Shown here: piece after piece, positions 2,584 through 33,203 of the stretch
Layout: every line of letters begins with the position of its first letter
How positions within the stretch are numbered: the first letter of the stretch is position 1
IMG/VR virus record: IMGVR_UViG_3300031952_000010
Span: 27,512-91,511 of that record
Source: a virus
Direction: 5' to 3' (one strand)
DNA: 64,000 bases
Translations under genes and position numbers: made by a program
The notes under the pieces: model-generated
Databases searched by the model: none
The model's input: only the letters and a program-made list of their open reading frames with translations
What the model was told of the DNA's origin: nothing

Positions 2584-3411
2584 ATGAAGAACACAAAAAG
2601 TTACAATGAATTAGTACAAAAGATGAGAGGATTTTTCCTTGATAAAGGTTTTATAGAGGTACCAACCCAATCTAGATTATCAATATTAGCGGCATGTGAG
2701 AACCCACATTCAATCGCTACTTTCAACTATAATGGGGAGATTTGGCCTTTACCACAGACAGGTCAGATGTGGTTGGAGTATGAGTTACTTAAGAACCCTG
2801 AATGGGAAGGAGTATTCTGTATTTCAACATCTTATAGACAAGAAAAGAACCCAATCCATGGTAGACATGAATTAATATTCCCAATGTTTGAATTTGAATC
2901 TAAAGGTACGATGAAAGATATGGTGGAACTTGAATCAGAACTTTTGAATCACTTGGGATTTAACAAACCTGTTGAGGTAAAATATGATGATGTTTGTGAG
3001 GAATATGGAAATGTTTCAATTTTAGAGGACGAGCATGAATCGAGAATGTGGGAAGAAAAAGGTTCGGTGATATCACTTCAAAATTTTCCATTAAGAACAA
3101 ACCCATTTTGGAACATGAAACATAATGAAAATAGTGTCTTTAATAAAGTGGATGTAATTCTTTACGGGCAAGAAACAATTGGAAGTGCGGAAAGAAGTTG
3201 TGACCCTGAAGAGATGAAACATAATTTCTACACGATTGAAGGTGGCGGTTATTCCGCCAAGTTGTTTGAACTATTTGGTAAAGATAGAGTTGAGAAAGAA
3301 CTTGAAGAATTCTTATCTTTGGATTTCTTCCCAAGATTTGGTGCGGGTATTGGTTTAACAAGATTGTCAAGGGCTTGGAATTTAAATCAAGTTGAATTGG
3401 AATTTATTTAA
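2584..3411 (+). CDS. orphan class II aminoacyl-tRNA-synthetase-like protein (AsnRS/AspRS type)
   Basis: 275-aa protein containing only a class II synthetase catalytic core. Motif 2 is STSYRQE...GRHELIFPMFEFE, with the ATP-binding Arg, and motif 3 is RFGAGIGLTRLSRAWNL with its Arg. A GQETIGSAERSCDP segment matches the conserved GE-x-GGSxRE region of class IIb enzymes. The N-terminal OB-fold anticodon-binding domain of AsnRS, AspRS and LysRS is missing. The fold resembles AsnA-type asparagine synthetases derived from AsnRS and other synthetase paralogues that act on amino acids or proteins. It may make asparagine, charge a small RNA or modify a protein; the sequence alone cannot decide. The window also carries a phage tRNA-Asn with odd architecture (27754). 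Confidence 0.75.
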   Translation: MKNTKSYNELVQKMRGFFLDKGFIEVPTQSRLSILAACENPHSIATFNYNGEIWPLPQTGQMWLEYELLKNPEWEGVFCISTSYRQEKNPIHGRHELIFPMFEFESKGTMKDMVELESELLNHLGFNKPVEVKYDDVCEEYGNVSILEDEHESRMWEEKGSVISLQNFPLRTNPFWNMKHNENSVFNKVDVILYGQETIGSAERSCDPEEMKHNFYTIEGGGYSAKLFELFGKDRVEKELEEFLSLDFFPRFGAGIGLTRLSRAWNLNQVELEFI

Positions 3412-4106: not shown

Positions 4107-4928
4107 ATGTTATTAAAAAAAGGGTCTAAAGGTGAAGACGTTAAAAAACTACAATCAAAATTAGGTCTAGTGGCTGACGGTGATTTCGGTTCTGGAACTG
4201 AAACTAAAGTAAAAGAATGGCAATCCTCAAACGGATTAACCGCCGATGGTGTCGTTGGAGACGGTACTTGGGGTAAAATGTTTGGTGGTGAAGTGATAAA
4301 AAAAGATGTGGTTATCCCAACAGGAGGACCATTAAAATTGGAAAAATTAAAAGGTCACGTTCCTGATGCGGTTATCTCACAAATTCCTGAAACTGCTGCG
4401 AAGTTTAATATAACTAACCCATTAAGATTAGCTCACTTCTTGGCACAATGTGGTCATGAAAGTGGTGGATTTAAAGCGGTTAGTGAAAATGTTAATTATT
4501 CTGCTGATGGTCTTAAAAAGATTTTTGGGAAATACTTTCCTGGTAACTTAAATGAGTCTTACGCTCGTCAACCTGAAAAAATTGCTGCAAGAGTGTACGC
4601 TGACCGTATGGGTAATGGTAATGAAGCGTCAAAAGAAGGGTTTAAATTTCGTGGAAGAGGGTATATCCAATTAACTGGAAAATCAAACTACACAAACTTT
4701 GCCAAATTTATTGGTGAAGATACGGTAACAAATCCTGATTTAGTTGCTACAAAATATCCATTAGCTTCCGCAGCATTTTTCTTTGATTCAAACAAACTTT
4801 GGTCAATATGTGATAAAGGAGCTGACGTTACCACGGTAACTGCGGTCACAAAAAGAGTTAACGGTGGTACTATCGGATTAGAAGATAGAATCAAACACTT
4901 TAAAGAATATTATTCATTATTATCATAA
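4107..4928 (+). CDS. endolysin: peptidoglycan-binding domain plus GH19 glycosidase
   Basis: 273-aa protein. Residues 1-55 form a PG_binding_1 domain (KKGSKGEDVKKLQSKLG...GDFGSGT...VVGDGTWGKM). Residues 90-272 are a GH19 chitinase/lysozyme fold with catalytic Glu118 in CGHESGGF and the conserved FRGRGYIQLTGKSNY segment. The enzyme should cut the glycan strands of host peptidoglycan at lysis or, if packaged, at entry. No signal peptide is seen, so export would need a holin. A strong terminator follows. Confidence 0.93.
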   Translation: MLLKKGSKGEDVKKLQSKLGLVADGDFGSGTETKVKEWQSSNGLTADGVVGDGTWGKMFGGEVIKKDVVIPTGGPLKLEKLKGHVPDAVISQIPETAAKFNITNPLRLAHFLAQCGHESGGFKAVSENVNYSADGLKKIFGKYFPGNLNESYARQPEKIAARVYADRMGNGNEASKEGFKFRGRGYIQLTGKSNYTNFAKFIGEDTVTNPDLVATKYPLASAAFFFDSNKLWSICDKGADVTTVTAVTKRVNGGTIGLEDRIKHFKEYYSLLS

Positions 4929-7007: not shown

Positions 7008-7229
7008 ATGATGAGAGTTCCTATAAAAACATGGAGAAAGATATTTTTAGAAAATCTTTCAGTAAAATTTTTAATGTTAGCAATGTTCTTCAACCCATTT
7101 GGGTTCGATGCCATCCAATACTATCTTATTACAGTAACAGGGAGTATCTGGTACGCCAATTTAATTATGTACTTCATCTCGGGATTCTTCTTTGGTCTAT
7201 ACTTTTATTTTCGAAAATTATCTAAATGA
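7008..7229 (+). CDS. small membrane protein
   Basis: 73-aa protein with two likely transmembrane helices (VKFLMLAMFFNPFGFDAI and YANLIMYFISGFFFGLYFYF) and a basic N-terminus (RVPIKTWRKIF). This frame was preferred to an overlapping one from 6944 because its hydrophobic pattern is coherent and its TGA overlaps the ATG of the next gene (ATGA), suggesting translational coupling. Function unknown. Confidence 0.7.
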   Translation: MMRVPIKTWRKIFLENLSVKFLMLAMFFNPFGFDAIQYYLITVTGSIWYANLIMYFISGFFFGLYFYFRKLSK

Positions 7230-8344
7230 AACTAATTGAATCCCACATATATAGAATAACTAACTTAATGGGGTTTACCCCTAATAATATTATTATTGAA
7301 TCTGAAAATGATAATAAAGACGAATATTATTTAAAAAGAATTGTTAATTTATTACAGTTCAACCGATTATATAATAGTGAAAATAAAATAAATTTAAATA
7401 AAATTCAACAATTTGCCAAAGAAAATTTAATAGATTTTGGATTATTGGAAAGGGGCATGATTAAATTATTAAAGTTAAAGGGTAATCGAAAATTAAATTT
7501 ATCCGAATTTTTTAGTGAATTAATTAAATCTTTAGAAAAAAGACATTCTCATAATTACATCGGTAACCTTGAAACTAACGACGAATTTTCATTTGAACCA
7601 CAAGAACCATCAGTCGTACCTAAAAAAGTATATAAAGAAGAGTTATATTATTTACAAATTGAATTATTAAAACTTCAAGAGTGGTTAAATAAAACTGGAA
7701 AAACAGTAATTATTGTTTTTGAGGGTAGAGATTCTGCGGGTAAAGGGTCAACTATTAAAAAATTTACTGAAAACATGAACCCAAGAAATTATAATGTAAT
7801 TGCTCTTGGAGTACCAACACCTGAAGAAAGAAAAAATTGGTGGGACAGGTACAGAAGTCAAATTCAAAAAGGTAAAATAAATTTATTTGATAGAAGTTGG
7901 TATAACAGAGGTCTTATTGAGCCAGTTATGGGTTATGGTAATCCTGAAGAATATGAAAATTTTATGAATAATGTTGAGGGGTTTGAGGAAGATTTGGTTA
8001 AAGACGGTAATTTTTTATTTAAATTGTGGTTCTCAATAGAAAAAGAAACTCAACAAAATAGATTTGATATGAGACAAAAATCTCAACTCAAGTATTGGAA
8101 GTATTCCCCTAATGATGAAAAAATGCAAGACCTTTGGGATAGATTTACAGAATTTAAAGAAAAATTATTTGATAAAACATCAACAGTTAATAATCCTTGG
8201 GTTGTCATTGATTCAAACGATAAAAAAATTTCAGGATTAAATTCAATCAGGTATATACTCCAAAATATACCTTATGAAGATAAAAATAAAAAAATATTAA
8301 ATCAATATTATCCTGAAGCTCTTTCAGTTTTAAACCCTAAGTAA
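7226..8344 (+). CDS. ppk2: polyphosphate kinase 2 family protein with N-terminal extension
   Basis: 372-aa protein. Residues about 135-365 are a PPK2 domain: Walker A EGRDSAGKGS (166-175), lid-region arginines in the WWDRYRSQ segment, and Walker B FDRSWYNRG (221-229). PPK2 transfers phosphate between polyphosphate and nucleotides, so it could regenerate NDP/NTP during phage replication. The N-terminal 130 residues are not part of PPK2. They start MKLIESHIYRITNLMGF, very close to the IIESLHRVKLLMGY start of the protein at 17532, a motif I associate with virion proteins. This raises the possibility that the enzyme is packaged. Overlap with the preceding gene implies one operon. Confidence 0.9.
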   Translation: MKLIESHIYRITNLMGFTPNNIIIESENDNKDEYYLKRIVNLLQFNRLYNSENKINLNKIQQFAKENLIDFGLLERGMIKLLKLKGNRKLNLSEFFSELIKSLEKRHSHNYIGNLETNDEFSFEPQEPSVVPKKVYKEELYYLQIELLKLQEWLNKTGKTVIIVFEGRDSAGKGSTIKKFTENMNPRNYNVIALGVPTPEERKNWWDRYRSQIQKGKINLFDRSWYNRGLIEPVMGYGNPEEYENFMNNVEGFEEDLVKDGNFLFKLWFSIEKETQQNRFDMRQKSQLKYWKYSPNDEKMQDLWDRFTEFKEKLFDKTSTVNNPWVVIDSNDKKISGLNSIRYILQNIPYEDKNKKILNQYYPEALSVLNPK

Positions 8345-13332: not shown

Positions 13333-13340
13333 AATAACTA

Positions 13341-13362
13341 CCCCCTTAATTGGGGGTTTTTT
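13341..13362 (+). terminator. Rho-independent terminator
   Basis: CCCCC-TTAATT-GGGGG then six Ts, the same stem and loop as at 4938. Confidence 0.9.
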
Positions 13363-13395: not shown

Positions 13396-13680
13396 ATGTC
13401 GGAAAATACAACTCCAGTTTCAGGATTCGCTGACACATTCTTATCTAAACTAAAAGAACAATCATTTACCATTATAGTTATGGTGGGTATTATTTGGTAT
13501 CAAGGTAAAATGATGGAAGAACGAGTTTCTTATTGGCAAAAATTATATGAAGAAAAAGAAGCATATATAGAACAAACCACAAAGGAGGACAGGGAAGATT
13601 TATTAGAAAGAATTAAATATCTTCAAGACCAACGAGACAAGTATGTTGAGGACGCAATTAATGAATTAAAAGAAAAATGA
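13396..13680 (+). CDS. membrane protein, one TM segment plus coiled coil
   Basis: 94-aa protein. A single hydrophobic helix (FTIIVMVGIIWYQGKMM, about 27-42) is followed by a long charged helix (YWQKLYEEKEAYIEQTTKEDREDLLERIKYLQDQRDKYVEDAINELKEK), typical of a coiled coil. Its last codons overlap the next ATG (ATGA), so it is probably coupled to the PAS protein. It could be a spanin-like, anti-holin-like or holin-partner protein; no family recognised. TATTTAT lies 16 nt upstream. Confidence 0.65.
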   Translation: MSENTTPVSGFADTFLSKLKEQSFTIIVMVGIIWYQGKMMEERVSYWQKLYEEKEAYIEQTTKEDREDLLERIKYLQDQRDKYVEDAINELKEK

Positions 13681-14786
13681 AAAATCTACCTAAAGAAGAG
13701 CTACTAAGCAGACTTGAAGCAATTAATAGAAGTAACGCTATTATCTACTTTGACCTTAACGGAATTATATTAGGGGTTAATGATATTTTTTTAGAAGCAA
13801 TGGGCTATGGTAAAGGTAACCATGAAGATTTAGTTGGAAAGCACCATAGTATTTTTGTATGTGATGACTATGCAAGAACACTTGAGTATGAAAAGTTTTG
13901 GGATATCTTAAGAAGCGGTAGGTACTATCAAGGCGAGTTTGAAAGAAGAAAAAAGGATGGTACTCTTATTAATCTTCAAGCAACTTACAATCCTATTTTT
14001 GATGAAGAGGGTAAGATTACTAAAATAATGAAGATTGCCACTGATATTAGTTTAATTGTTAATAGCCAAAAACAAATAGAGGCAATCAATAGAAGTACTG
14101 CTCTCATAAGTTTTAACCTTGATGGGTTCATAACAGAAGTTAATTCTATATTTTTAGAAACTATGGGATATACTGCTAATGAAAAATCTAAAGTCATCGG
14201 CAAACATCACAGTGTTTTTGTGAGTTATGAGTATTCAAAGTCTGATGATTATACTAAGTTTTGGGAAAGCTTGAAAAAAGGTAAATACTTTGATGGGATT
14301 TTTGAAAGAAAAAAAGTAGATGGCTCTACTGTTTATCTTCAAGCATCTTACAATCCTGTGTTAGATAGTAAAGGAAATATCACTGATGTAGTTAAAATTG
14401 CAACTGATGTTACTGAGTCTGTAAACAATAAGAAAAAAATAGATGACTTAACAAAGAATTTGACAATTGAGCTAAATAATTCAGAAAAACTTAAGAACTC
14501 AATAGAGATAGAAAAGAACGCAGCATTGAATGACTTAGACATAGTGATGAAAAAAAGTCAATCTGAGCTAATAAAAACAATTGTAAAGGTTGCATTGTCC
14601 GTTATCATTGGTGTAGGTGTTGTAACAACTATGTTATATTGGATGGCTATGGTTACAGGTAAAGACACACAAATTATAGGTTCTACTTGGAGTAATATGT
14701 TTAGTGTACTACTAACAAACGCGTTTTCAATAGTCGGTACAATTATGGGTATTAAGTATGCAACGCAAGATGGAAAAAAACAATAA
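13677..14786 (+). CDS. tandem PAS-domain membrane sensor-like protein
   Basis: 369-aa protein. Two PAS domains in tandem (about 15-130 and 135-255) share the same sequence plan: AINRS..I.F.L.G.I..VN..FLE.MGY ... VGKHHS.FV ... FWE.L..G.Y..G.FERRK.DG....LQA.YNP..D..G.I....KIATD. They are clear duplicates. A short coiled coil (NLTIELNNSEKLKNSIEIEK) and two TM helices follow (VKVALSVIIGVGVVTTMLYWMAMV and NMFSVLLTNAFSIVGTIMGIKYA). No kinase, cyclase or MCP signalling domain is present. PAS domains bind haem, flavin or small ligands and sense redox or oxygen. The TM hairpin at the end suggests a sensor coupled to a membrane pore, for example a holin; this is inference. Confidence 0.8.
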   Translation: MKNLPKEELLSRLEAINRSNAIIYFDLNGIILGVNDIFLEAMGYGKGNHEDLVGKHHSIFVCDDYARTLEYEKFWDILRSGRYYQGEFERRKKDGTLINLQATYNPIFDEEGKITKIMKIATDISLIVNSQKQIEAINRSTALISFNLDGFITEVNSIFLETMGYTANEKSKVIGKHHSVFVSYEYSKSDDYTKFWESLKKGKYFDGIFERKKVDGSTVYLQASYNPVLDSKGNITDVVKIATDVTESVNNKKKIDDLTKNLTIELNNSEKLKNSIEIEKNAALNDLDIVMKKSQSELIKTIVKVALSVIIGVGVVTTMLYWMAMVTGKDTQIIGSTWSNMFSVLLTNAFSIVGTIMGIKYATQDGKKQ

Positions 14787-14809
14787 ATGAATTAAAAGAT
14801 AAATAAATT

Positions 14810-15754
14810 ATGAAAAAACACGCACACATTAAACACAACGAAACCGCAGAAACACATTCAGATGAAACTTCTGGCGGAGCATCAATTGATAACACAACTA
14901 CTGCATCCGCAGGTGTATCAACGGGAGATGAAAACGCATCAATAGGTATTGAGGCGTCAGTTAAAAGTGGAACCGAGGCATCTGTAGAAGGAGGATTAGA
15001 CGGTAATAATGTTTATGTAGAAGCAAACTACTCAGATACAACTGAGGCTCATGTAACAGTAGAAGGTCAAGCCAATGCGGAAGGATTTGGAGTTAGTGGT
15101 ACTGTTGACGCTTATGTTAAAACAGGAAATGAAGCGAGTTTAGAAGTAAGAGCTGGTGATGAAGGAGTCGTTGCGAACGGGGAACTATCTTCAGGAAGTT
15201 CAGTTGGTGTAGATGGTGAAGGAACATTAGATTTGAGAGAAGGTTCTGTAACCGCAGGTGCAGGGGTATCAGTTGGAGAACAAGTTGGTATCGGTGGTGG
15301 TGGTGAAGCTACTTTGGTAGATGGAGTTGCAACCGTAGGAGTTAGTGGTGAAGTGGCGGTTTTACTTGGTGTTGATGTTGATTTAAGTGTTAGTATTGAT
15401 ACAAACCAAATTGCAGAAGACGCTAAATTAGCCGCGGAACAATCAGAACGTGCGGCGGCAGAAGCTCAAGAATTGGCTGAATTAACACGAAAAGAAACTG
15501 AACGACTTGCGGCAATCGCCCAAGAAGAAACTGAAAGAAAAGCGAAAGAGGCTCAGGAAGAATTTGATAGACAAGCGAAAGCGGCTAAAGAAGAAAGTGA
15601 TAGATTGGCGAGAATTGCACAGGAAGAACTTGACAGACAGGCGAGAGCGGCACAGGAAGAACTTGACAGACAAGCGAGAGCGGCACAAGACGCACTTAAT
15701 AACGCGGCAAGAGAAGCTGAAAAATCAAAATGGAATCCTAAAAATTGGTTTTAA
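14810..15754 (+). CDS. repetitive Gly/Ala/Ser-rich protein with C-terminal coiled coil
   Basis: 314-aa protein. Residues 1-200 are low-complexity beta-repeat-like (GVSVGEQVGIGGGGEATLVDG), then a long heptad/11-mer coiled coil with repeats of RQARAAQEELD and variants (about 205-305). It ends KSKWNPKNWF. Such mixed beta-repeat and coiled-coil proteins are common in phage fibres, but it lacks a known fibre tip or chaperone domain. It follows the PAS protein by 23 nt in the same orientation. Confidence 0.65.
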   Translation: MKKHAHIKHNETAETHSDETSGGASIDNTTTASAGVSTGDENASIGIEASVKSGTEASVEGGLDGNNVYVEANYSDTTEAHVTVEGQANAEGFGVSGTVDAYVKTGNEASLEVRAGDEGVVANGELSSGSSVGVDGEGTLDLREGSVTAGAGVSVGEQVGIGGGGEATLVDGVATVGVSGEVAVLLGVDVDLSVSIDTNQIAEDAKLAAEQSERAAAEAQELAELTRKETERLAAIAQEETERKAKEAQEEFDRQAKAAKEESDRLARIAQEELDRQARAAQEELDRQARAAQDALNNAAREAEKSKWNPKNWF

Positions 15755-25687: not shown

Positions 25688-25761
25688 GGCTCCGTAGCTC
25701 AATTGGACAGAGCAACACACTTCTAATGTGTAGGTTACTGGTTCGAGTCCAGTCGGGGTCA
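25688..25761 (+). tRNA. tRNA-Arg(UCU)
   Basis: Full cloverleaf: acceptor GGCTCCG/CGGGGTC, anticodon loop TTCTAAT (TCT), T-arm CTGG-TTCGAGT-CCAG. Discriminator A; CCA not encoded. It stands alone, 1.6 kb before the first cluster, and reads AGA, a codon rich in AT-biased genomes. Confidence 0.95.
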
Positions 25762-25775
25762 CTAAAATTTATAAT

Positions 25776-26027
25776 ATGGGAAGTTATGACAATATATTAG
25801 AACAAGAACATAATGAGTTTGTTGAAAGCGACTTGTTTTGTTTTTACGTTCGTGAAAAAATAGAAAACTCACATTTTCATAAATACGATGGAATTGCCCC
25901 TGAGGGATTTATATTAATTCCAGAACAAACCTTAGAAAGATTAAAAGACTTCGAAACTTGGAAGGAATGGAAGAATAATCCATCTATTTTGAAAGAAATG
26001 ATGATTTATGACCTAAAAAATGAATAA
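25776..26027 (+). CDS. hypothetical protein
   Basis: 83-aa acidic protein (MGSYDNILEQEHNEFVESDLFCFYVREKIENSHFHKYDGIAPEGFILIP...). No domain recognised. It starts 15 nt after tRNA-Arg and is probably co-transcribed with it; a fresh promoter follows its stop. Confidence 0.65.
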   Translation: MGSYDNILEQEHNEFVESDLFCFYVREKIENSHFHKYDGIAPEGFILIPEQTLERLKDFETWKEWKNNPSILKEMMIYDLKNE

Positions 26028-26032
26028 TTGTT

Positions 26033-26062
26033 TTGTGGATTAGAATATAATTAGTATATTTG
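26033..26062 (+). promoter_or_regulatory. Bacteroidota-type promoter, leaderless context
   Basis: TTG (26033-26035), 19-nt spacer, TATATTTG (26055-26062); ATG at 26067, 4 nt on. Confidence 0.8.
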
Positions 26063-26066
26063 TGGT

Positions 26067-26783
26067 ATGAAATATTCAGCACTTAAAGACATCGTTTATA
26101 TTGGTTTGATGGTTTTAGCTATCGGAGGAACCAACGAGTATTTGGACAAATACGACTACAGTTATGACAAAGTAATGGCGTCTATCGGGTCTGAAGCAAA
26201 AAGACTTGATAAAGTTTACGGTTATGACAAGAACTACTCAAAAGAAGATGTTGTTGAGGTAACTCCTGACGTAGAACAACCATCTTCAACTGAAGTTACT
26301 TCTGACCAAGTAATCTACATCCACGGTTTTGGTAACTACACTCAAAGTGACCTTTATACAATAAAAGAAGGTGTTGAAAACTTCTACGGTATCCGTTGTG
26401 TAATTTCTGAAAGTGTTGAGTCTGATGATTTCTACTATAACAATAACACTAACGTATTGTTAGCTTACAAAGTATTGTCATTATCTGTTGGTAAATCAAA
26501 CATGAATATGTACGTAACTGACGAACCATTATGTGAAGAAAATTCTAATAATTTAATCAGTGGTCACGCAAGAATTAATTGTGATGGTTCTGTTATCAGT
26601 ACTAAAGAAATGAGAAATAACAACCACTACAATAATAATAGTTTAGTTCACACTGCGGTACACGAGTTAGGTCATAACTTTGGGTTGTCTCACTGTAATA
26701 ACCAATCTTGTATCATGAAATCTCACGGTTTAGATACTAAAGAGTTCTGTGATGAGTGTAAATCAAAAATTAACAAACATTAA
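26067..26783 (+). CDS. archaemetzincin-like zinc metalloprotease, membrane-anchored or exported
   Basis: 238-aa protein. The core H199-ELGHNFGLSH-C210 (HExxHxxGxxHC) followed by CIM (215-217) and a CxxC (228-231) is the archaemetzincin signature, where the cysteines bind a second, structural zinc. The N-terminus has a hydrophobic helix (IVYIGLMVLAIGG, 9-21), so the protease is likely exported or membrane-tethered. A GT..Y.Y repeat-rich linker follows. Archaemetzincins occur in archaea and some bacteria; finding one in a phage is unusual. The substrate is unknown. Driven by its own leaderless-type promoter. Confidence 0.85.
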   Translation: MKYSALKDIVYIGLMVLAIGGTNEYLDKYDYSYDKVMASIGSEAKRLDKVYGYDKNYSKEDVVEVTPDVEQPSSTEVTSDQVIYIHGFGNYTQSDLYTIKEGVENFYGIRCVISESVESDDFYYNNNTNVLLAYKVLSLSVGKSNMNMYVTDEPLCEENSNNLISGHARINCDGSVISTKEMRNNNHYNNNSLVHTAVHELGHNFGLSHCNNQSCIMKSHGLDTKEFCDECKSKINKH

Positions 26784-26794
26784 AATAAATAGAT

Positions 26795-27058
26795 ATGCCT
26801 GATTTTAGTGCAGAAATTGACATCGAACCATATGAATATGTTTCGGCGTGTAGTAAACGTGAAATAGTAGAACTTCTTGAGTCTTTAGTTGAGGAGGGTT
26901 ACATTAGTAGAAGTGCAATCTCAGCAATTGATGCTGATAGGGATAAGAACCTTTTAGATGAAGAATGGGATGTGATAACTGATAAGTTGAATCAAAATCG
27001 ACTTATGTTATCTAATGAAGAAGAAGAACTAATTAGGAAAATATCAAAAAGATTTTAA
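26795..27058 (+). CDS. hypothetical protein
   Basis: 87-aa acidic, helical protein (MPDFSAEIDIEPYEYVSACSKREIVELLESLVEEGYISRSAISAID...). No recognised domain. It starts 11 nt after the protease gene and is probably in its operon. Confidence 0.65.
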   Translation: MPDFSAEIDIEPYEYVSACSKREIVELLESLVEEGYISRSAISAIDADRDKNLLDEEWDVITDKLNQNRLMLSNEEEELIRKISKRF

Positions 27059-27064
27059 AAAAGT

Positions 27065-27094
27065 TTGACAATTGCAGAATTTTTCATAACTTTG
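27065..27094 (+). promoter_or_regulatory. Bacteroidota-type promoter
   Basis: TTG (27065-27067), 19-nt spacer, TAACTTTG (27087-27094). Drives a 39-codon ORF ending at a terminator just before the tRNA cluster. Confidence 0.75.
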
Positions 27095-27140
27095 TAATAA
27101 TTATAGAAACAGGTAGAAATACCACAACAAAAAAAAAACA

Positions 27141-27260
27141 ATGAAAACTAATAAACAACATATGGTCATTAACGTGAAATCGCAATTTAGTAATTGCTGG
27201 TATCCGCGTATTTCGCATACAAGTTCAGTTAGTTTATTAAGTGATATAATTTTTGAATAA
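27141..27260 (+). CDS. 39-aa ORF with its own promoter and terminator
   Basis: MKTNKQHMVINVKSQFSNCWYPRISHTSSVSLLSDIIFE. It is preceded by an A-rich leader and followed by a strong terminator at 27287. It may encode a small protein or be a leader peptide controlling the tRNA unit beyond. Unrelated to any family I know. Confidence 0.45.
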   Translation: MKTNKQHMVINVKSQFSNCWYPRISHTSSVSLLSDIIFE

Positions 27261-27286
27261 AAGATTAATCACACAAGATAACACGA

Positions 27287-27320
27287 ATCCTGAACTCAAA
27301 AAGTTCAGGATTTTTTTTTT
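27287..27320 (+). terminator. Rho-independent terminator
   Basis: ATCCTGAAC / GTTCAGGAT stem with a 7-nt loop and ten Ts. It ends the 39-aa ORF transcript, 11 nt before the boxA-like element of the tRNA cluster. Confidence 0.9.
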
Positions 27321-27330
27321 GTTATAAAGT

Positions 27331-27342
27331 GTTCTTTGACAT
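27331..27342 (+). promoter_or_regulatory. boxA-like antitermination element
   Basis: GTTCTTTGACAT, the type of sequence found in the leaders of Bacteroidota rRNA operons. It lies 17 nt before tRNA-Pro. Related copies occur before the other RNA units at 29300, 33262, 45539 and, on the minus strand, 47347. Confidence 0.55.
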
Positions 27343-27358
27343 ATTGGTAAAAAGTAAA

Positions 27359-27430
27359 CGGGGTGTAGTCTCGAGGAGAGACGCGTGTTTTGGGAACACG
27401 AGGCGGCAGGTTCGACTCCTGTCACCCCGA
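27359..27430 (+). tRNA. tRNA-Pro(UGG)
   Basis: Acceptor CGGGGTG/CACCCCG, anticodon loop TTTGGGA (TGG), T-arm GCAGG-TTCGACT-CCTGT. First tRNA of cluster 1. No encoded CCA. Confidence 0.93.
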
Positions 27431-27436
27431 CTACAT

Positions 27437-27510
27437 TGTCACATAGCTCAGTTGGTTAGAGCGTTCGCCTGATACGCGAAAGGTCGATGGTTCGAGCCCA
27501 TCTGTGACAA
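27437..27510 (+). tRNA. tRNA-Ile(GAU)
   Basis: Perfect acceptor TGTCACA/TGTGACA, anticodon loop CTGATAC (GAT), T-arm GATGG-TTCGAGC-CCATC; 6 nt after tRNA-Pro. Confidence 0.95.
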
Positions 27511-27516
27511 CTTAAT

Positions 27517-27590
27517 GACTTCGTAGCTCAGTTGGCTAGAGCACCTCACTTTTAATGAGGGAGTCCCGAGTTCGAGTCTCGGCGGGGTCA
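27517..27590 (+). tRNA. tRNA-Lys(UUU)
   Basis: Acceptor GACTTCG/CGGGGTC with G.U pairs, anticodon loop CTTTTAA (TTT), T-arm CCGAG-TTCGAGT-CTCGG. Confidence 0.95.
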
Positions 27591-27596
27591 CAATAA

Positions 27597-27668
27597 GGTC
27601 GGTTGGCCGAGTGGTTTAGGCGATAGTCTGCAAAACTATCAACACAGGTTCGACTCCTGTACCGACCT
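27597..27668 (+). tRNA. tRNA-Cys(GCA)
   Basis: Acceptor GGTCGGT/ACCGACC, anticodon loop CTGCAAA (GCA), T-arm ACAGG-TTCGACT-CCTGT; discriminator T, as usual for tRNA-Cys. Confidence 0.95.
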
Positions 27669-27673
27669 CAAAT

Positions 27674-27746
27674 ACGTCTGTAGCTCAGTTGGTAGAGCAT
27701 TGGTCTCCAAAACCAAGTGTCGGTGGTTCGAATCCATCCAGGCGTG
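27674..27746 (+). tRNA. tRNA-Trp(CCA)
   Basis: Acceptor ACGTCTG/CAGGCGT, anticodon loop CTCCAAA (CCA), T-arm GGTGG-TTCGAAT-CCATC; discriminator G, the Trp identity base. Confidence 0.95.
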
Positions 27747-27753
27747 CTAAAAT

Positions 27754-27839
27754 TGACGGGTTCGCGTAGTTGGCCGAACGCACCAGACTGTTAATCTGGC
27801 GAGACTTCTCCACCGTGGGTTCGAATCCCACCCCGTCAG
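27754..27839 (+). tRNA. tRNA-Asn(GUU) with class II variable arm
   Basis: Acceptor TGACGGG/CCCGTCA, anticodon loop CTGTTAA (GTT), T-arm GTGGG-TTCGAAT-CCCAC, discriminator G (correct for Asn). The variable region is 14 nt with a small GAG-ACTT-CTC stem, so the body is class II like tRNA-Tyr, not the normal 5-nt Asn form. The anticodon stem and loop (CAGACTGTTAATCTG) differ from typical tRNA-Tyr by the anticodon change GTA to GTT. A separate true tRNA-Tyr is at 28567. Confidence 0.88.
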
Positions 27840-27888
27840 CAAACATTTACGAACTTTCTAATATTTATTAATATAAAATGTTAATATT

Positions 27889-28446
27889 ATGGAAAGGTAT
27901 TCGGAAAAAATAATTACCTTAAGGAAAGAAGGTAAAACCTATAAAGAAATTAAAAACATTATAGGGTGTGCAATGTCAACAATATCGTATCATTGTACAT
28001 TAAATGGTTTAGGGGATAATAACCAAAAGGTAACTGAGAACGAAATCATCGAACTTCAAAAAATGTATGACGAATTTGGTTCACTTAAAAAAGTTGCTAA
28101 AATAACGGGAAGGGCTTTTGATACCGTTCAAAAATATGTTAAGACAAAACAAAAAGTTAAAACTGTAACATCTTCTGAATCAGTTATTTTATGGAGAAAA
28201 AGGACTAAAATTAAATTGATTGAATATAAAGGAGGTAAATGTGAAATTTGTGGATATGATAAATGTAATAGAGCCTTACAATTTCATCATAAAAATCCAT
28301 TAGAAAAGGATTTTTCAATATCGGGTAGAAGTTTATCATTTGACAGATTAAAAGACGAGGTTGATAAATGTATGTTAGTTTGTTCTAATTGTCATTGTGA
28401 AATACACGATAATTTAATAACGATAAATAGGTTGATTAGGGAATGA
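27889..28446 (+). CDS. HNH homing endonuclease-like protein in the tRNA cluster
   Basis: 185-aa protein. Two helix-turn-helix segments at the N-terminus (LRKEGKTYKEIKNIIGCAMSTISYHCTL and MYDEFGSLKKVAKITGRAFDTVQKYV) are followed by an HNH/zinc-ribbon domain: CEICGYDKCNRALQFHHKNPLEKDF ... CMLVCSNCHCEIHDN. This is the layout of homing nucleases with DNA-reading heads. It lies between tRNA-Asn and tRNA-Tyr, a typical place for a homing gene to enter. No sign of a disrupted gene around it. Confidence 0.88.
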   Translation: MERYSEKIITLRKEGKTYKEIKNIIGCAMSTISYHCTLNGLGDNNQKVTENEIIELQKMYDEFGSLKKVAKITGRAFDTVQKYVKTKQKVKTVTSSESVILWRKRTKIKLIEYKGGKCEICGYDKCNRALQFHHKNPLEKDFSISGRSLSFDRLKDEVDKCMLVCSNCHCEIHDNLITINRLIRE

Positions 28447-28465
28447 TTGAACTGATAGTTCGAGA

Positions 28466-28506
28466 GTGAATACTGACTAGTACAATCGGAGTTTGCAGGT
28501 ATTCAC
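28466..28506 (+). other. 8-bp stem-loop in intergenic RNA
   Basis: GTGAATAC (28466-28473) pairs perfectly with GTATTCAC (28499-28506) around a 25-nt loop. It lies between the HNH gene and tRNA-Tyr. A terminator-like hairpin (AAAACAGA / TCTGTTTT, 28526-28558) follows. No known riboswitch recognised. Confidence 0.4.
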
Positions 28507-28566
28507 CCGAGTAATGCTAATCGTAAAAACAGATGTCCACTGAACCATCTTCTGTTTTCCTAAATT

Positions 28567-28647
28567 GGGAGTATTGAGCAACGGTTGCTCAGCGGTCTGT
28601 AAAACCGTCGCCATTTGGCATTGCAGGTTCGAATCCCGCTACTCCCA
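28567..28647 (+). tRNA. tRNA-Tyr(GUA)
   Basis: Acceptor GGGAGTA/TACTCCC, anticodon loop CTGTAAA (GTA), long variable arm (CGCCATTTGGCAT), T-arm with TTCGAAT and one A.C mismatch. The D-arm is unusually self-complementary (GAGCAA-CGG-TTGCTC). Confidence 0.9.
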
Positions 28648-28651
28648 CAAT

Positions 28652-28680
28652 AAAAAAAGGGGAATAACTTCCCCTCTTTT
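28652..28680. terminator. bidirectional terminator
   Basis: GGGGAA-TAAC-TTCCCC flanked by an A run on the left and a T-rich tract on the right. It separates the tRNA unit from the convergent 54-aa gene. Confidence 0.8.
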
Positions 28681-28701
28681 CTTTAATTTGGTTGTTATTA
28701 A

Positions 28702-28866
28702 TTATTTTTTTTTAGAAACAATTGACCACACACCACCTGCAAGTGTAACCGCTGCTCCGATAAGTTCTTGTACTGATGAATCAGTTGCAAGACCTTTCAT
28801 AATCAGGATACCACCTACGAAAGTAAGTGTGTGTCTAACGATACCTAGGATTTGTTCTTTAGTCAT
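28702..28866 (-). CDS. 54-aa holin-like membrane protein
   Basis: MTKEQILGIVRHTLTFVGGILIMKG... with two hydrophobic segments (HTLTFVGGILIMKGL and LIGAAVTLAGGVWSIV) and a Lys-rich C-terminus (SKKK). The form matches small phage holin-like proteins, but no activity can be read from sequence. The gene is unusual in lying inside the tRNA cluster on the opposite strand. Confidence 0.7.
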   Translation of the reverse strand: MTKEQILGIVRHTLTFVGGILIMKGLATDSSVQELIGAAVTLAGGVWSIVSKKK

Positions 28867-28922
28867 TTTAATGTTGATTAAAGGTTTATGCCAGTCTATA
28901 AGTATCGGAGAAATAGGTAAAC

Positions 28923-28993
28923 TGTCCTTTGGTCTAATGGCAGGACACGTGGTTTTGGTCCACGCGGTGGAGGTTCGAATCCTTCAGGGACAA
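28923..28993 (+). tRNA. tRNA-Gln(UUG)
   Basis: Acceptor TGTCCTT/AGGGACA, anticodon loop TTTTGGT (TTG), T-arm GGAGG-TTCGAAT-CCTTC. Confidence 0.95.
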
Positions 28994-29040
28994 CAAGGGG
29001 TTCGGGGGAAACCCAATAGTGGGTGATGAGCCCACATCCT
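28994..29040 (+). other. two-hairpin spacer between tRNAs
   Basis: GGGTT-7nt-AACCC and GTGGG-TGATGAG-CCCAC occur back to back. GC-rich and well paired compared with other spacers; function unknown. Confidence 0.4.
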
Positions 29041-29046
29041 CCAAAT

Positions 29047-29115
29047 ACCGAATGGTCTGGTGACCGAAAATGGCTCATATCCGTTTTTAGAGTGGTTCGA
29101 AACCATTATTCGGTA
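29047..29115 (+). tRNA. tRNA with CAU anticodon, short D-arm
   Basis: Perfect acceptor ACCGAAT/ATTCGGT, anticodon loop CTCATAT (CAT), 5-nt variable loop, T-arm AGTGG-TTCGAAA-CCATT. The D-arm is reduced to GGTC-TGGT-GACC and the usual bases 8-9 seem missing, giving 69 nt. Met or, after lysidine modification, Ile(AUA) are both possible. Confidence 0.65.
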
Positions 29116-29123
29116 CTTTAAAC

Positions 29124-29196
29124 AGTTCCTTAGCTCAGTTGGGAGAGCGCTTGTTTTACATGCAAGATGTCGTAGGTTCGAATCCTACAGGAACTA
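29124..29196 (+). tRNA. tRNA-Val(UAC)
   Basis: Perfect acceptor AGTTCCT/AGGAACT, anticodon loop TTTACAT (TAC), T-arm GTAGG-TTCGAAT-CCTAC. Confidence 0.95.
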
Positions 29197-29206
29197 CAAA
29201 AAATGT

Positions 29207-29237
29207 TTGGAGAATTAAATAATTTGCCGTACATTTG
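29207..29237 (+). promoter_or_regulatory. Bacteroidota-type promoter of the second part of cluster 1
   Basis: TTG (29207-29209), 20-nt spacer, TACATTTG (29230-29237), followed by a 12-bp hairpin and a boxA-like element. Confidence 0.7.
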
Positions 29238-29250
29238 TAATATAGAAGTA

Positions 29251-29310
29251 AGGGGGGTAGGTAGTTAGTGGGTTGGTGACCTACTCCCCTGACGAAAGAG
29301 TTCTTTGAAT
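29251..29310 (+). promoter_or_regulatory. hairpin plus boxA-like leader
   Basis: A 12-bp stem (29251-29262 with 29279-29290; AGGGG...CCCCT at the base) is followed by GTTCTTTGAA (29300-29309). The same order (promoter, hairpin, GTTCTTTGA) occurs at 33204-33273 and 45482-45547. Confidence 0.5.
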
Positions 29311-29558
29311 AAAATGTTGGTGGATGGTAAGAAACGGTAAACTCGTAAAGTGCATTAACCTGTTGATATGAAATGGTGAAACGAGAGTCCATATCAGCTA
29401 CTCATCACAATAAAAATATTGATAATGGTTTTCCCCATTCAACGAAGGTCGACTCTTCAGAATGGAATCGGAATTCATCACCCTTTGCTGAGGCCTCATT
29501 AAAACTCAGGAAGCAATTAAGATTGGAGCGAGACGGGTACTCCATCATTATTATACTT
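29311..29558 (+). ncRNA. structured non-coding leader before tRNA-Phe
   Basis: About 250 nt with no convincing ORF. Stems include TGATATG / CATATCA (29363 region) and CTGAG-12nt-CTCAG (29489 region). Positions 29524-29540 are complementary (15 of 17, one mismatch possibly a G.U) to the 3' arm of the downstream tRNA-Phe. Could be a processed leader or a separate small RNA. Confidence 0.4.
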
Positions 29559-29631
29559 GGAACGGTAGCTCAGTTGGTAGAGCACTTGATTGAAGCTCAA
29601 GGTGTCGGCGGTTCGAACCCGTCTCGTTCCA
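29559..29631 (+). tRNA. tRNA-Phe(GAA)
   Basis: Acceptor GGAACGG/TCGTTCC, anticodon loop TTGAAGC (GAA), T-arm GGCGG-TTCGAAC-CCGTC. Confidence 0.93.
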
Positions 29632-29705
29632 CGGAGTCCTGAAATAACAGGATGCCCCCACTCCCATATGGCAGCCAGTCCATTAAGCTGGTGAAGGGGG
29701 TAAAT

Positions 29706-29810
29706 AGTCAAGTGGACGTAATGCGGGATGGTCCCAAGTCCCCAACTCTAACGAGGTAAGGTAGTCTAATCCGTCTTGAACGGTATTCGGTTCGAGTCCG
29801 ACCTTGATTA
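29706..29810 (+). other. tRNA-like element, anticodon not assignable
   Basis: A 7-bp acceptor-like stem (AGTCAAG / CTTGATT) and a T-arm (TCGG-TTCGAGT-CCGA) sit in exact tRNA geometry, with a D-stem-like GGAC/GTCC. The 105-nt length and lack of a normal 5-7-5 anticodon arm set it apart. Perhaps a degenerate tRNA, a tRNA with an insertion, or a decoy. Confidence 0.4.
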
Positions 29811-29815
29811 CAAAT

Positions 29816-29894
29816 TGCGATAATGGTGTAGGGTCGTTCTCATGAGACGATTTGGTAGATATACCCCTGTGAGGTTCGAGTCCTCAAATCGCAA
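29816..29894 (+). other. tRNA-like element with CAU loop, no normal D-arm
   Basis: Acceptor TGCGATA/AATCGCA (6 of 7 pairs) and T-arm TGAGG-TTCGAGT-CCTCA are tRNA-like. TCGTT-CTCATGA-GACGA could be an anticodon arm with CAT. The D region is only 11 nt; alternatively GGTGTA/TATACC is a D-stem with the hairpin inside its loop and no anticodon arm. Identity unclear. Confidence 0.45.
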
Positions 29895-29904
29895 CAAATT
29901 ATAT

Positions 29905-29978
29905 GGTGACTATAGCTCAGTTGGCAGAGCAAAGGTTTGTGGTACCTTGTGCCATGGGTTCGATTCCCATTAGTCACC
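29905..29978 (+). tRNA. tRNA-His(GUG)
   Basis: G-1 (29905) pairs with C73; acceptor GTGACTA/TAGTCAC, anticodon loop TTGTGGT (GTG), T-arm ATGGG-TTCGATT-CCCAT. The encoded G-1:C73 pair is the His identity mark. Confidence 0.95.
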
Positions 29979-29982
29979 CAAA

Positions 29983-30075
29983 TAGGTTGGGGTCCCTTGT
30001 AGTAACGGATTGAACTATAGTAAGTAAACTACAAGTATCTAGTAAGAAGTCACAGATGGGTTCGTGACGACCTAA
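29983..30075 (+). other. structured RNA element of about 92 nt
   Basis: Outer stem TAGGTTG / CGACCTA (7 bp), inner stem CTTGTAG / CTACAAG (7 bp) and GTCAC / GTGAC (5 bp). It fills the gap between tRNA-His and tRNA-Ser. No tRNA T-loop. Could be a small RNA or processing signal. Confidence 0.45.
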
Positions 30076-30078
30076 ATT

Positions 30079-30163
30079 GGAGGAATGGCAGAGTGGTCTA
30101 TCGCACTTGTCTTGAAAACAAGCGTACCGAAAGGTACCGTAGGTTCGAATCCTACTTCCTCCG
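30079..30163 (+). tRNA. tRNA-Ser(UGA)
   Basis: Acceptor GGAGGAA/TTCCTCC, anticodon loop CTTGAAA (TGA), class II variable arm (GTACC-GAAA-GGTAC), T-arm GTAGG-TTCGAAT-CCTAC; discriminator G. Confidence 0.95.
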
Positions 30164-30186
30164 CAAAACAATTAGAAAAAAAACAT

Positions 30187-30390
30187 ATGACAGACAAGTT
30201 AAAAGAGTTGTTAGAGACATCTCAAATTGGGGAACCTGAAATCGTTGATTTAATTCATTCGTATTATAAATTAGTGACCGCTGAATTATTCACACAAGAA
30301 GAATTTGATACCGTATTAGAAAGATTAGGTATTACACAAAACGGGAACGTTTTTATTTTCAACGAGAACATAACTTATACTTTTAACTAA
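30187..30390 (+). CDS. hypothetical small protein between tRNAs
   Basis: 67-aa acidic protein ([44 protein letters not shown]...). ATG 30187 follows an A-rich stretch; the longer frame would run through tRNA-Ser and is rejected. No domain recognised. Probably on the tRNA transcript. Confidence 0.65.
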
Positions 30391-30393
30391 AAT

Positions 30394-30465
30394 AGTTCCT
30401 TGGTGTAATGGATAGCACTAAACACTACGGATGTTTCAGTGAGGGTTCGAGTCCTTCAGGGACTA
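30394..30465 (+). tRNA. tRNA-Arg(ACG)
   Basis: Acceptor AGTTCCT/AGGGACT, anticodon loop CTACGGA (ACG), T-arm GAGGG-TTCGAGT-CCTTC. A34 would be read as inosine by host TadA, covering CGU/CGC/CGA. Confidence 0.93.
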
Positions 30466-30470
30466 CTATT

Positions 30471-30555
30471 GGAAGATTGGCAGAGTGGTAATGCGGCGGT
30501 TTGCTAAACCGTAGACCTCGAAAGGGGTCCACAGGTTCGAATCCTGTATCTTCCG
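30471..30555 (+). tRNA. tRNA-Ser(GCU)
   Basis: Acceptor GGAAGAT/ATCTTCC, anticodon loop TTGCTAA (GCT), class II variable arm (GACC-TCGAAAG-GGTC), T-arm ACAGG-TTCGAAT-CCTGT; discriminator G. Confidence 0.95.
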
Positions 30556-30600
30556 CTTATTTATAATTTTATACTATTTATTATCGAATAATATGATATC

Positions 30601-31995
30601 ATGAGTTACAAAAAATTTTTAATAGCGGAATCCGAGAAAAAGAACATTAGAGAAATGTACGGTTTACTAACCGAACAGTATTTCAAACCACCAAACGGTG
30701 GTGAAGGTCAAGTGGTAAATAAATATCCTGCGGGTTACTACTCCTTAAGTGGAACTGATAAGGCGGGTAACGTATATGACAATACAATCAATTTACAAAA
30801 AATTATTGACAATGCCAAAGAGTTTTTAACAACCAATAAAGGTTTTATTCCAAGAGTTGTAATAAACGCGGGAGAATCAATTATCCCTAACTACGACACT
30901 GAAGGGGGTACTGGTGTTAAAAACTCAGGATGGTTATCTGAAAAAAGAAAAAATAAGATTTCTGAATATGTCAAAAATCAATTAAAAGATTTAGTTAGTA
31001 AAAAATTAATATCAAAAGAACCTGAGGTTATTCTATATTTTGATGAAGCTAAAACATTAACGGTACCGTCAGGTGGTTGGGAGGGTTATCGAACATGGAA
31101 AAGAAGTTCTGAAGCTGAAAAGGTTAATAACCCTAATAATGCCGAGTACACCAAATTAAAAACAGGATACGATAATGACCAATTCACCAAAATAAATTTT
31201 AAAATTGTTCCTGATTTAGGCCCAAACCAATGTTCATTTAATGTCAAAATTGGTGTGCATTACGATGATTTAGATATTGGTCATAGATGTAATAAGGCGA
31301 GATTCCAAATATTGGCTAATGGTGTTCCGTTAACAACTGGTGCGGGCTCAACCTGTGGAAATGGTTTATCGTATGCGGACATGAATAACGGTGGTGGTAG
31401 TTTAGATTGTAAATCAGGCGACATTGGTGGTAAAAGAATGAATTACTTCCAACTAAATAGTAAGTCTATTGTGGACAAAATAATGGCGGCGTCTCCCGAC
31501 AAAAACTCAATAAAAATATCCATGAAATGTACATCAACAGGATTTGATGATGCTTCAGGTAGATGTCACCAAGATGTACCACATATTACGATTCATAACA
31601 CTGATGGTAAACAAACGGTTAACACCTACCCTAAAGTTAACGATAAAGATTTAATTACAATTGACAAGTGCGGTAATTTAATTACAGGTGGTGGTGGTGT
31701 CGCAACAAAAAGTAAAGATGCTGGTGGTACTGCAACAACTACAGTTACTACAACAAAACCTACAGGTCAAAAATTAAATTTTGCGTCACCAGCAACAGGA
31801 ACGTTAACTTCTGACCAAGCGATTCTTAATAAAATTAGTGATGGCTCAATTAAGAAAAACGCGGATAATACTTATTCAGTATTAAAAACATTTAATTATA
31901 ATGGTGTGTCTTATAGAATTAATGATACAATTGTTAAAATATTACCTAAAGGTAGTGTAGTAACTACGACAACGACAACTATTAAACCAAAATAA
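30601..31995 (+). CDS. putative virion protein with N-terminal motif
   Basis: 464-aa protein. The start MSYKKFLIAESEKKNIREMYGLLTEQ is a clear example of the shared terminal motif, ending LLTEQ, a possible gp21-type cut site. The middle domain (about 200-350) is beta-rich with several Cys (GPNQCSFNVKIGVHYDDLDIGHRCNKARF; GSTCGNGLSYADM). The C-terminus is Thr-rich and may be surface-exposed. TATTTAT lies 19 nt before the ATG. No enzyme domain seen. Confidence 0.65.
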   Translation: MSYKKFLIAESEKKNIREMYGLLTEQYFKPPNGGEGQVVNKYPAGYYSLSGTDKAGNVYDNTINLQKIIDNAKEFLTTNKGFIPRVVINAGESIIPNYDTEGGTGVKNSGWLSEKRKNKISEYVKNQLKDLVSKKLISKEPEVILYFDEAKTLTVPSGGWEGYRTWKRSSEAEKVNNPNNAEYTKLKTGYDNDQFTKINFKIVPDLGPNQCSFNVKIGVHYDDLDIGHRCNKARFQILANGVPLTTGAGSTCGNGLSYADMNNGGGSLDCKSGDIGGKRMNYFQLNSKSIVDKIMAASPDKNSIKISMKCTSTGFDDASGRCHQDVPHITIHNTDGKQTVNTYPKVNDKDLITIDKCGNLITGGGGVATKSKDAGGTATTTVTTTKPTGQKLNFASPATGTLTSDQAILNKISDGSIKKNADNTYSVLKTFNYNGVSYRINDTIVKILPKGSVVTTTTTTIKPK

Positions 31996-31996
31996 A

Positions 31997-32019
31997 AATG
32001 GGGGTCAGTGACCCCCAAT
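31997..32019. terminator. bidirectional terminator
   Basis: GGGGGTCA-G-TGACCCCC between convergent genes, with the better T tract on the minus strand. Confidence 0.7.
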
Positions 32020-32020
32020 T

Positions 32021-32416
32021 CTATTCGATATTACCGTAGTAGTGGTAAGAATTTTTACCATCATCAACAATAACTGTCATTGATGTGTTATCAACACATT
32101 GTGATGTGAAATAAGTCACAACACAGGTTTTGTTAGATTTCAATTCCACAGAGTAAAAAGAATTTACCCCAGGATTTGATTCTTTTGTACCTGAGAATTT
32201 GTATACCATCTCAGTACCTTCACTTTTAATTACTAAAGAATCTTTACCAATTAAAACGGTTGGTGAACTTAACAATACTGAATCAACCCATGTTGATGTA
32301 CTATCAGTGATTGCGTAACCAATCTCTAAAGATTTAACTTTTACTTTATAGATGTCTTGTGATAAACAAACTAATGTTGTTAAAGACAATAACGATGTTA
32401 GGATTAATTTTTTCAT
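32021..32416 (-). CDS. secreted protein with signal peptide
   Basis: 131-aa protein. The N-terminus MKKLILTSLLSLTTLVCLSQD is a standard signal peptide with likely cleavage after CLS. The mature part is Ser/Thr/Val-rich beta structure with two Cys (KTCVVTY, SQCVDN) that could form a disulfide. It carries its own leaderless-type TATATTTG promoter, so it may be expressed early. A role in changing the cell envelope, for example blocking superinfection, is possible but unproven. Confidence 0.75.
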   Translation of the reverse strand: MKKLILTSLLSLTTLVCLSQDIYKVKVKSLEIGYAITDSTSTWVDSVLLSSPTVLIGKDSLVIKSEGTEMVYKFSGTKESNPGVNSFYSVELKSNKTCVVTYFTSQCVDNTSMTVIVDDGKNSYHYYGNIE

Positions 32417-32420
32417 ACAA

Positions 32421-32451
32421 CAAATATAACGCTCTTATTTGACTAAAACAA
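32421..32451 (-). promoter_or_regulatory. Bacteroidota-type promoter, leaderless context
   Basis: Minus strand: TTG (32451-32449), 20-nt spacer, TATATTTG (32428-32421), ATG 4 nt on. Confidence 0.75.
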
Positions 32452-32494
32452 ATTTTTTTATTATTTTCTTTCTAAAAATATTTTTTAAAAAGTT

Positions 32495-32524
32495 TTGGCA
32501 GTCTCAAAATTTATTGTATCTTTG
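32495..32524 (+). promoter_or_regulatory. Bacteroidota-type promoter
   Basis: TTG (32495-32497), 19-nt spacer, TATCTTTG (32517-32524). Divergent from the previous promoter. Confidence 0.8.
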
Positions 32525-32546
32525 TATTCACAAAAACGATATAACT

Positions 32547-32996: not shown

Positions 32997-33066
32997 GAAG
33001 TTTTTACCAATATTTGACTTTTTATGAAAGTCGTATATATTTAATAGAAAATACATAATACTGCAA

Positions 33067-33138: not shown

Positions 33139-33163
33139 TGTTTTGTCAACAATAACAATCAGA

Positions 33164-33192
33164 ACCCATCTCCAAAAAAGATGGGTTTTTTT
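33164..33192 (+). terminator. Rho-independent terminator
   Basis: ACCCATCT-CCAAAAA-AGATGGGT then six Ts. Confidence 0.9.
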
Positions 33193-33203
33193 ATGTCTAA
33201 AAG

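Follow-up and report, generated by a model that had tools for sequence, protein, structure and literature searches.

The timing of phage lysis is usually explained by the accumulation of holins together with simple antiholins. To our knowledge, environmental inputs to this process are few, namely lysis inhibition and quorum-sensing receptors that act on lysogeny genes. VqmA of phage VP882, a PAS-domain quorum-sensing receptor, launches the lytic programme (PMC8284805, PMC12802170); it is a soluble DNA-binding transcription factor that works on the lysis-lysogeny switch via qtip. In T4, lysis inhibition is exerted by the antiholins RI and RIII on the holin T (PMC8385771), and it is also described in a Vibrio cholerae phage (PMC7182436); T4 RI is periplasmic, is believed to sense superinfecting phage DNA, and receives no input through PAS, GAF or a two-component system. 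The mycobacteriophage proteins LysF1a and LysF1b make up a two-protein holin-like pair, the former with two TM segments in N-in/C-in orientation and the latter with a single N-terminal TM (PMC13056207); neither such pairs nor class II holins contain a sensor domain. In bacteria, LytST/LytSR-LrgAB place holin-like membrane proteins linked to lysis under two-component control (PMC3507848, PMC4830213); LytSR is chromosomal and works through a response regulator that controls gene expression.

Here we describe a phage protein in which two PAS domains precede a membrane hairpin. Like VqmA, it is a phage-encoded PAS sensor that would be tied to host killing; unlike VqmA, the sensor is mounted on a membrane hairpin, has no HTH, and belongs to lysis cassettes. 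With T4 lysis inhibition it would share the principle of phage proteins sensing a condition and setting lysis timing at the membrane. The LysF1a/LysF1b pair resembles the sTM1 and CC proteins of the cassettes treated below, yet the hairpin has no sequence match to the holin families tested. In contrast to LytSR, the hairpin system lies in a phage operon, where a receiver-only regulator sits beside the membrane protein. Homologous PAS domains occur in Aer (also membrane-anchored), MmoS, NifL and tandem-PAS MCPs and kinases, but there the output is an MCP, a kinase or a partner protein, and the cellular relatives that we retrieved lack the hairpin. T4 lysis inhibition, VqmA and LytST-LrgAB are the nearest role analogues, and none of them joins a phage sensor or phosphorelay to a lysis-cassette membrane output.

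The Locus and Its Record

The window, that is, the whole stretch of 64,000 nucleotides analysed, covers bases 27512-91511 of the IMG/VR virus record IMGVR_UViG_3300031952_000010 (91.5 kb), which derives from a freshwater phage and includes terminase, portal and head protease genes. Judging from the relatives of its PAS domains, our guess is a host among Bacteroidota. Relevant features are collected in table 1. Elsewhere in the window, 27 tRNA genes are clustered at 25688-34989 with small ORFs in between; a Clp-family ATPase (phrog_4871 ATP-dependent protease, E 2e-238) lies at 49698-51740 on the strand opposite to its neighbours; and 52417-53712 encodes an N-terminal nucleotidyltransferase domain fused to a C-terminal M23 peptidase. 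By eye, the ORF at 7226-8344 resembles polyphosphate kinase 2, and that at 2584-3411 a class II aminoacyl-tRNA synthetase, a similar ORF being found beside the TM-GAF gene of locus L143.

Table 1. Features of the tandem-PAS locus and of related genes, in window coordinates
Feature	Position	Strand	Basis
GH19-type endolysin with PG-binding domain	4107-4928	+	phrog_181 endolysin, 1.1e-68
Terminator-like hairpin preceding the CC and PAS genes	13340-13357	+	scan
Small TM/coiled-coil (CC) protein, 94 aa	13396-13680	+	ORF; weak PHROG 9316 'holin', E 0.0033
Tandem-PAS/coiled-coil/TM-hairpin protein, 369 aa	13677-14786	+	ORF, Pfam, hydropathy
PAS repeat A (aa 9-130)	13701-14066	+	Pfam PAS_3, aa 33-120
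PAS repeat B (aa 131-252)	14067-14432	+	Pfam
Linker/predicted coiled coil (about aa 253-296)	14433-14564	+	alignments
TM helix 1 (aa 302-320)	14580-14636	+	hydropathy
Invariant loop and TM helix 2 (aa 331-364, TQIIGSTWSNMFSVLLTNAFSIVGTIMGIKYATQ), proposed output element	14667-14768	+	conservation
Insertion scar: 26-bp second copy of the CC gene 3' end (CAATAAATGAATTAAAAGATAAATAA)	14781-14806	+	alignment vs L174/L176
Downstream gene, 314 aa, low complexity	14810-15754	+	directly 3' of CC in sister phages
Second sensor-like membrane protein, N-terminal TM and GAF-like domain (TM-GAF)	43007-43612	+	homologue L143
M15-like peptidase (weak), adjoins TM-GAF	43642-44310	+	PF13539, E 0.029, below cut-off
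M23 peptidase	44310-44933	+	PF01551, 3.6e-8

Domain Architecture of the Tandem-PAS Protein

The 369-aa protein matches PAS_3 (PF08447) twice, with an E value of 2.7e-25 and 88.9 bits against a curated cut-off of 25.6. Since the two repeats are 51% identical to each other (E 3e-48), the initial annotation was right in calling the PAS domains duplicated. Downstream of the repeats, the linker ends in a segment (LNDLD..KKSQ.ELI) common to the PAS protein and to the two-component version of the hairpin protein described below. A second hydrophobic segment at aa 341-359 completes a C-terminal hairpin with the first TM helix, these TM calls being made by hydropathy only. Pfam searches returned no kinase (HisKA/HATPase), MCP or other output domain in the protein. 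Among cellular proteins, the PAS pair is most closely related to histidine kinases and chemotaxis (MCP) proteins, which lack the hairpin, so the description of a TM hairpin standing in place of a kinase or MCP module was also accurate. Near-full-length relatives with 83-89% identity occur in at least 80 IMG/VR contigs, and the gene is therefore not a chance product.

The nearest solved PAS domains are those of Aer, NifL and 3ewk, which we take to be MmoS. In the G..W.G...N segment of such domains the Trp and Asn hold flavin. Alignments to MmoS and Aer place Tyr at the Trp position and Glu at the Asn position in both repeats of the phage protein; these replacements appear to lower the odds of flavin binding, short of excluding it. 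Redox sensing, first suggested for the protein, is thus unsupported as far as FAD is concerned.

Selective Constraint on the Hairpin

Among 58 distinct proteins, 33 of the 34 columns of aa 331-364 are invariant, and pN/pS of this stretch is 0.011. Elsewhere in the same proteins the ratio is 0.121 in PAS-A, 0.114 in PAS-B, 0.173 in the coiled coil and 0.190 in TM1 plus loop, while pS is similar over all regions (0.46-0.58). Constraint on TM2 is therefore about ten-fold that on the PAS domains at equal pS, and the invariant stretch was kept while the DNA diverged, since its low ratio goes with a pS like that of the other regions. We conclude that the hairpin is the likely output element of the PAS protein, as far as can be judged from patterns of substitution. 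The protein had been described as lacking an output domain; the near-invariance of the hairpin, and its presence in PAS, GAF and two-component forms alike, show behaviour expected of an output.

A Recent Insertion Next to a Probable Lysis Gene

The PAS gene overlaps the upstream CC gene by 4 bp (ATGA). Gene for gene, four sister phages (L174-L177) follow the same order as the window, at 58-94% protein identity, but the PAS gene is missing from them and CC directly precedes the homologue of the gene at 14810. In the window, the scar left by the second copy of the CC 3' end supplies the last codon and the stop of the PAS gene. Because the collinear sisters are without the gene and the 26-bp copy remains, comparison of these sequences indicates that the PAS gene is a recent insertion in the window phage; it is also dispensable in this lineage, given that the sisters do without it.

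In other phages the CC family is found between endolysin genes, in the order sTM1-lysozyme-CC-PG enzyme or GH19-CC. As CC is elsewhere a lysis-cassette gene, the insertion adjoins another probable lysis gene. In many phages (L192-L234) the family is flanked by a lysozyme and another PG enzyme, which makes CC a holin-like candidate itself. The PAS protein had initially been regarded as coupled to this TM/coiled-coil protein; the pairing is local, and we rejected CC as an obligate PAS partner, since the sisters carry CC without PAS and most PAS relatives have no CC. A late-promoter-like motif, GTATTTATA, at 13372 before the CC gene was likewise dropped, being no commoner than in shuffled sequences.

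Genomic Neighborhood of PAS-Hairpin Genes

The surroundings of the PAS-hairpin relatives in IMG/VR, whose contigs are mostly fragments, differ from the window and among themselves, but lysis genes recur. Gene families were scored with profiles purpose-built for this analysis. In 51 dereplicated close relatives, a PG-degrading enzyme lies at most three genes away in 94% and at most two genes away in 92%, against 22% within two genes for random genes of the same 51 loci. Among the matches listed, 67 of the 69 PAS-type loci with enough flank have such an enzyme within three genes, where random genes from the same loci give an expectation of 35%; homologues near endolysins, the search suggested at the outset, were thus found. 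Neighbours include Phage_lysozyme, Peptidase_M15_3, GH19, PG_binding and relatives of Phage_holin_4_1, and homologues of the GH19 endolysin at 4107-4928 adjoin PAS-hairpin genes in other phages. A small 2TM holin-like protein (the sTM1 family) is encoded within 3 kb in 33 of 39 PAS loci with enough flank; of the Phage_holin_4_1 relatives in the same loci, HOL9 occurs in 5 and HOL20 in 6. Lysis cassettes of PAS phages also contain a protein with a lipoprotein signal and a C-terminal TM (L001:1719-2195), the topology of a unimolecular spanin.

Across the PAS-type loci, closeness to endolysin, holin or spanin genes is thus conserved, an association that fails in the window. The window phage is one of two exceptions among the 51, with no PG enzyme within four genes and the endolysin about 8.5 kb off. 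About 2 kb beyond the window there is a 2TM candidate resembling sTM1 (L408:5468-5731, the same as G000:25468-25731), assigned by eye, the profile search having given no match.

Other Sensors Joined to the Hairpin

When IMG/VR was scanned by alignment a second time, the same 80 loci came back, and a motif scan, using a DNA pattern of the invariant motif without restriction to PAS, was then used to reach other architectures; its totals are lower bounds. With all sets combined, at least 136 dereplicated viral loci carry the hairpin: at least 74 with two PAS domains, at least 21 with one, at least 37 with a receiver (a kinase also being seen in 32 of these), and at least 4 of other or cut form. 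A single-PAS form in L300 shows an apparent in-frame deletion that fuses repeat B to the beginning of repeat A; such variants may thus arise by inter-repeat recombination.

The two-component form came up among relatives of the TM-GAF protein: in L143-L148, near a GH19 endolysin, a 225-aa protein with the same C-terminal hairpin follows a receiver gene and the gene of a 707-aa histidine kinase. Pfam identifies Response_reg in the receiver and GAF, PAS and HATPase_c in the kinase of the L143-type locus. A dedicated scan found 43 two-component hairpin loci, nearly all in the order kinase-receiver-hairpin; L311 and L344 have one or two further genes between receiver and hairpin, among them that of a TM/coiled-coil protein in L311. 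The canonical receiver residues (D-D, D, S/T, K) are kept in 35-36 of 36, and the kinase boxes H in 31/32, N in 30/32, G2 in 26/32 and G1 in 20/32. The phage receivers are CheY-like, of about 145 aa and without a DNA-binding domain, and therefore most likely act by protein contact. A PG enzyme lies within four genes in 15 of 26 two-component loci, among the matches listed, against 26% by chance, a moderate association; L354 has a complete cassette, with a Phage_holin_4_1 relative, an M15 peptidase, sTM1, one further gene, hairpin, receiver and kinase.

GAF-coiled coil-hairpin fusions are encoded in L360 and L401 (the GAF domain being Pfam-confirmed for L360 only), the latter adjoining a GH19 endolysin. 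Because the GAF domain of L360 is 60% identical to that of the L143 kinase, one sensor occurs both in a kinase and fused to the hairpin. The hairpin tree divides PAS-fused from two-component forms as two clades (support 0.99 and 0.97), and GAF falls within the two-component one. Twenty-one virus records of 72-203 kb hold exactly one hairpin each. A strong histidine-kinase-type HATPase match adjoins the hairpin in 10/10 two-component records and in 0/11 fused-sensor records; nine of the latter have no HATPase match and two have a weak, distant one, possibly a topoisomerase. From these comparisons the sensor forms look interchangeable. Those fused to the hairpin, whether two PAS, one PAS or GAF, are domains of cytoplasmic type.

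The TM-GAF protein itself has 163 relatives in IMG/VR, mostly beside M15- or M23-like peptidase genes; in its L143 homologue the GAF match (E 0.0014) falls under the Pfam cut-off. Homologues of the M15-like peptidase at 43642-44310 neighbour TM-GAF in other phages, and TM-GAF genes sometimes adjoin a PAS-hairpin or two-component hairpin gene (hairpin neighbours in L021, L023, L052 and L254-L259). TM-GAF probably serves as another sensor in the setting of the PAS-hairpin protein.

Distribution of the Hairpin

The hairpin was found in none of 792 sampled Bacteroidota genomes (395 plus 397), while the same model matches 21/21 hairpin-bearing viral records. It was also absent from an annotated and cultured phage collection (50,697 phage records) and had no match in Pfam, PHROGs or PDB; we consider it virus-restricted on the basis of these searches. 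Neither the PAS protein nor its two-component counterpart matched a holin profile in Pfam or PHROGs, and hhalign found no homology between the hairpin and the cassette sTM1, Phage_holin_4_1 or other small TM families. In annotated phages, the receiver of the phage relay had no match and the kinase domain weak matches only, and the PAS matches came from an 8-kb 'Bacteriophage sp.' scaffold (L093), where the protein is MCP-type, and from two unannotated 10-kb 'Listeria phage' records. We found no description of a sensor-to-hairpin phage system in the open-access literature. In a survey of 224 jumbo phages the words PAS, GAF and holin are absent, and histidine-kinase two-component systems are cited only as never holding its divergent receiver domain (PMC7824862).

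Discussion

Our findings are compatible with a model, to which we assign an even chance, where the PAS protein is the one-component version of a phage signal-transduction module, its output being the C-terminal membrane hairpin and its target the lysis machinery. A signal-controlled lysis effector or regulator is, we infer, the best reading of the locus. Because sTM1 is present in most PAS loci and Phage_holin_4_1 relatives in several, so that another holin-like protein is usually at hand, the hairpin may regulate lysis instead of forming the hole; gene content makes a signal-dependent regulator of the antiholin or co-holin type more likely than a main hole-former. In the fused form, the ligand or cofactor state of the PAS pair would alter coiled-coil packing; in the two-component form, the phosphorylated receiver would bind the hairpin protein with the same effect on the coiled coil. 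The hairpin, lying N-in/C-in in the inner membrane, would then self-assemble in a different way or alter how it contacts the cassette's small TM holin-like protein(s), delaying or triggering the opening of the membrane to the endolysin, and lysis would be timed by host or environmental state.

The initial annotation had gone further, proposing a holin gated by redox or ligand. Its general idea, that of a phage sensor with a role in lysis at the membrane, gains from the proximity of endolysins and from the several sensor inputs of one hairpin, whereas the holin itself is called into question by the other holin-like protein of most PAS loci. Oligomerisation of the hairpin into a lesion (class-II-holin or pinholin-like, N-in/C-in), gated by the sensor, is nevertheless the best of the alternatives, a possible reading that we hold to be doubtful. 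It draws on a two-TM hairpin with a charged tail, on the many small and polar residues of an invariant TM2, and on invariance in the company of endolysins and holin-like proteins of several unrelated kinds, a pattern easier to reconcile with self-assembly than with the matching of one partner; in L021 and L332, moreover, a GH19 endolysin is adjacent and known holin families are absent nearby. Yet sTM1, HOL9 and HOL20 recur close to the PAS genes, and the hairpin shows no profile similarity to cassette holins or to any Pfam, PHROG or PDB entry.

A conserved host target could also explain why the hairpin is so extremely conserved in cassettes whose phage partners differ, and the hairpin could then serve superinfection exclusion, host membrane energetics or a host membrane protein, its neighbourhood reflecting the clustering of late membrane genes. 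The looser tie of two-component loci to PG enzymes and the distance of the window copy from the endolysin fit such a target, which is unlikely all the same, as several endolysin types are associated with the hairpin, repeatedly in immediate adjacency and far above the random control from the same loci. Still less probable, to the point of being hard to defend, is a hairpin that merely anchors the protein while the signal exits via the soluble part. Aer is anchored through a TM hairpin, and PAS domains of the Aer type count among the closest relatives of solved structure; an anchor, however, would not require 33/34 identity and such a low pN/pS while the rest drifts, nor would it require the hairpin to be the single part common to all sensor architectures. 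An annotation artefact or a chance ORF pair can be set aside with near certainty, given a Pfam score far above the cut-off, strong purifying selection and the many near-full-length relatives.

What is new here is the hairpin domain and the sensor-to-hairpin architecture; the role, if it is lysis timing, is known but reached in a new way. The hairpin module occurs in the lysis cassettes of many environmental phages, and its near-invariant sequence defines an undescribed membrane domain. Overall, we suggest, with the case for and against about equally strong, a new viral signalling class in which a membrane output hairpin is plugged into PAS, GAF or a phage kinase-receiver relay, and in which sensed conditions would decide the final lysis step post-translationally. 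Even if the target is not lysis, the phage kinase-receiver-hairpin relay is still new to the open-access literature and the databases searched. If the proposed role in lysis is true, phages control the last step of infection by bacterial-style signal transduction, and the question of what virulent phages sense before lysis becomes testable with one small protein family.
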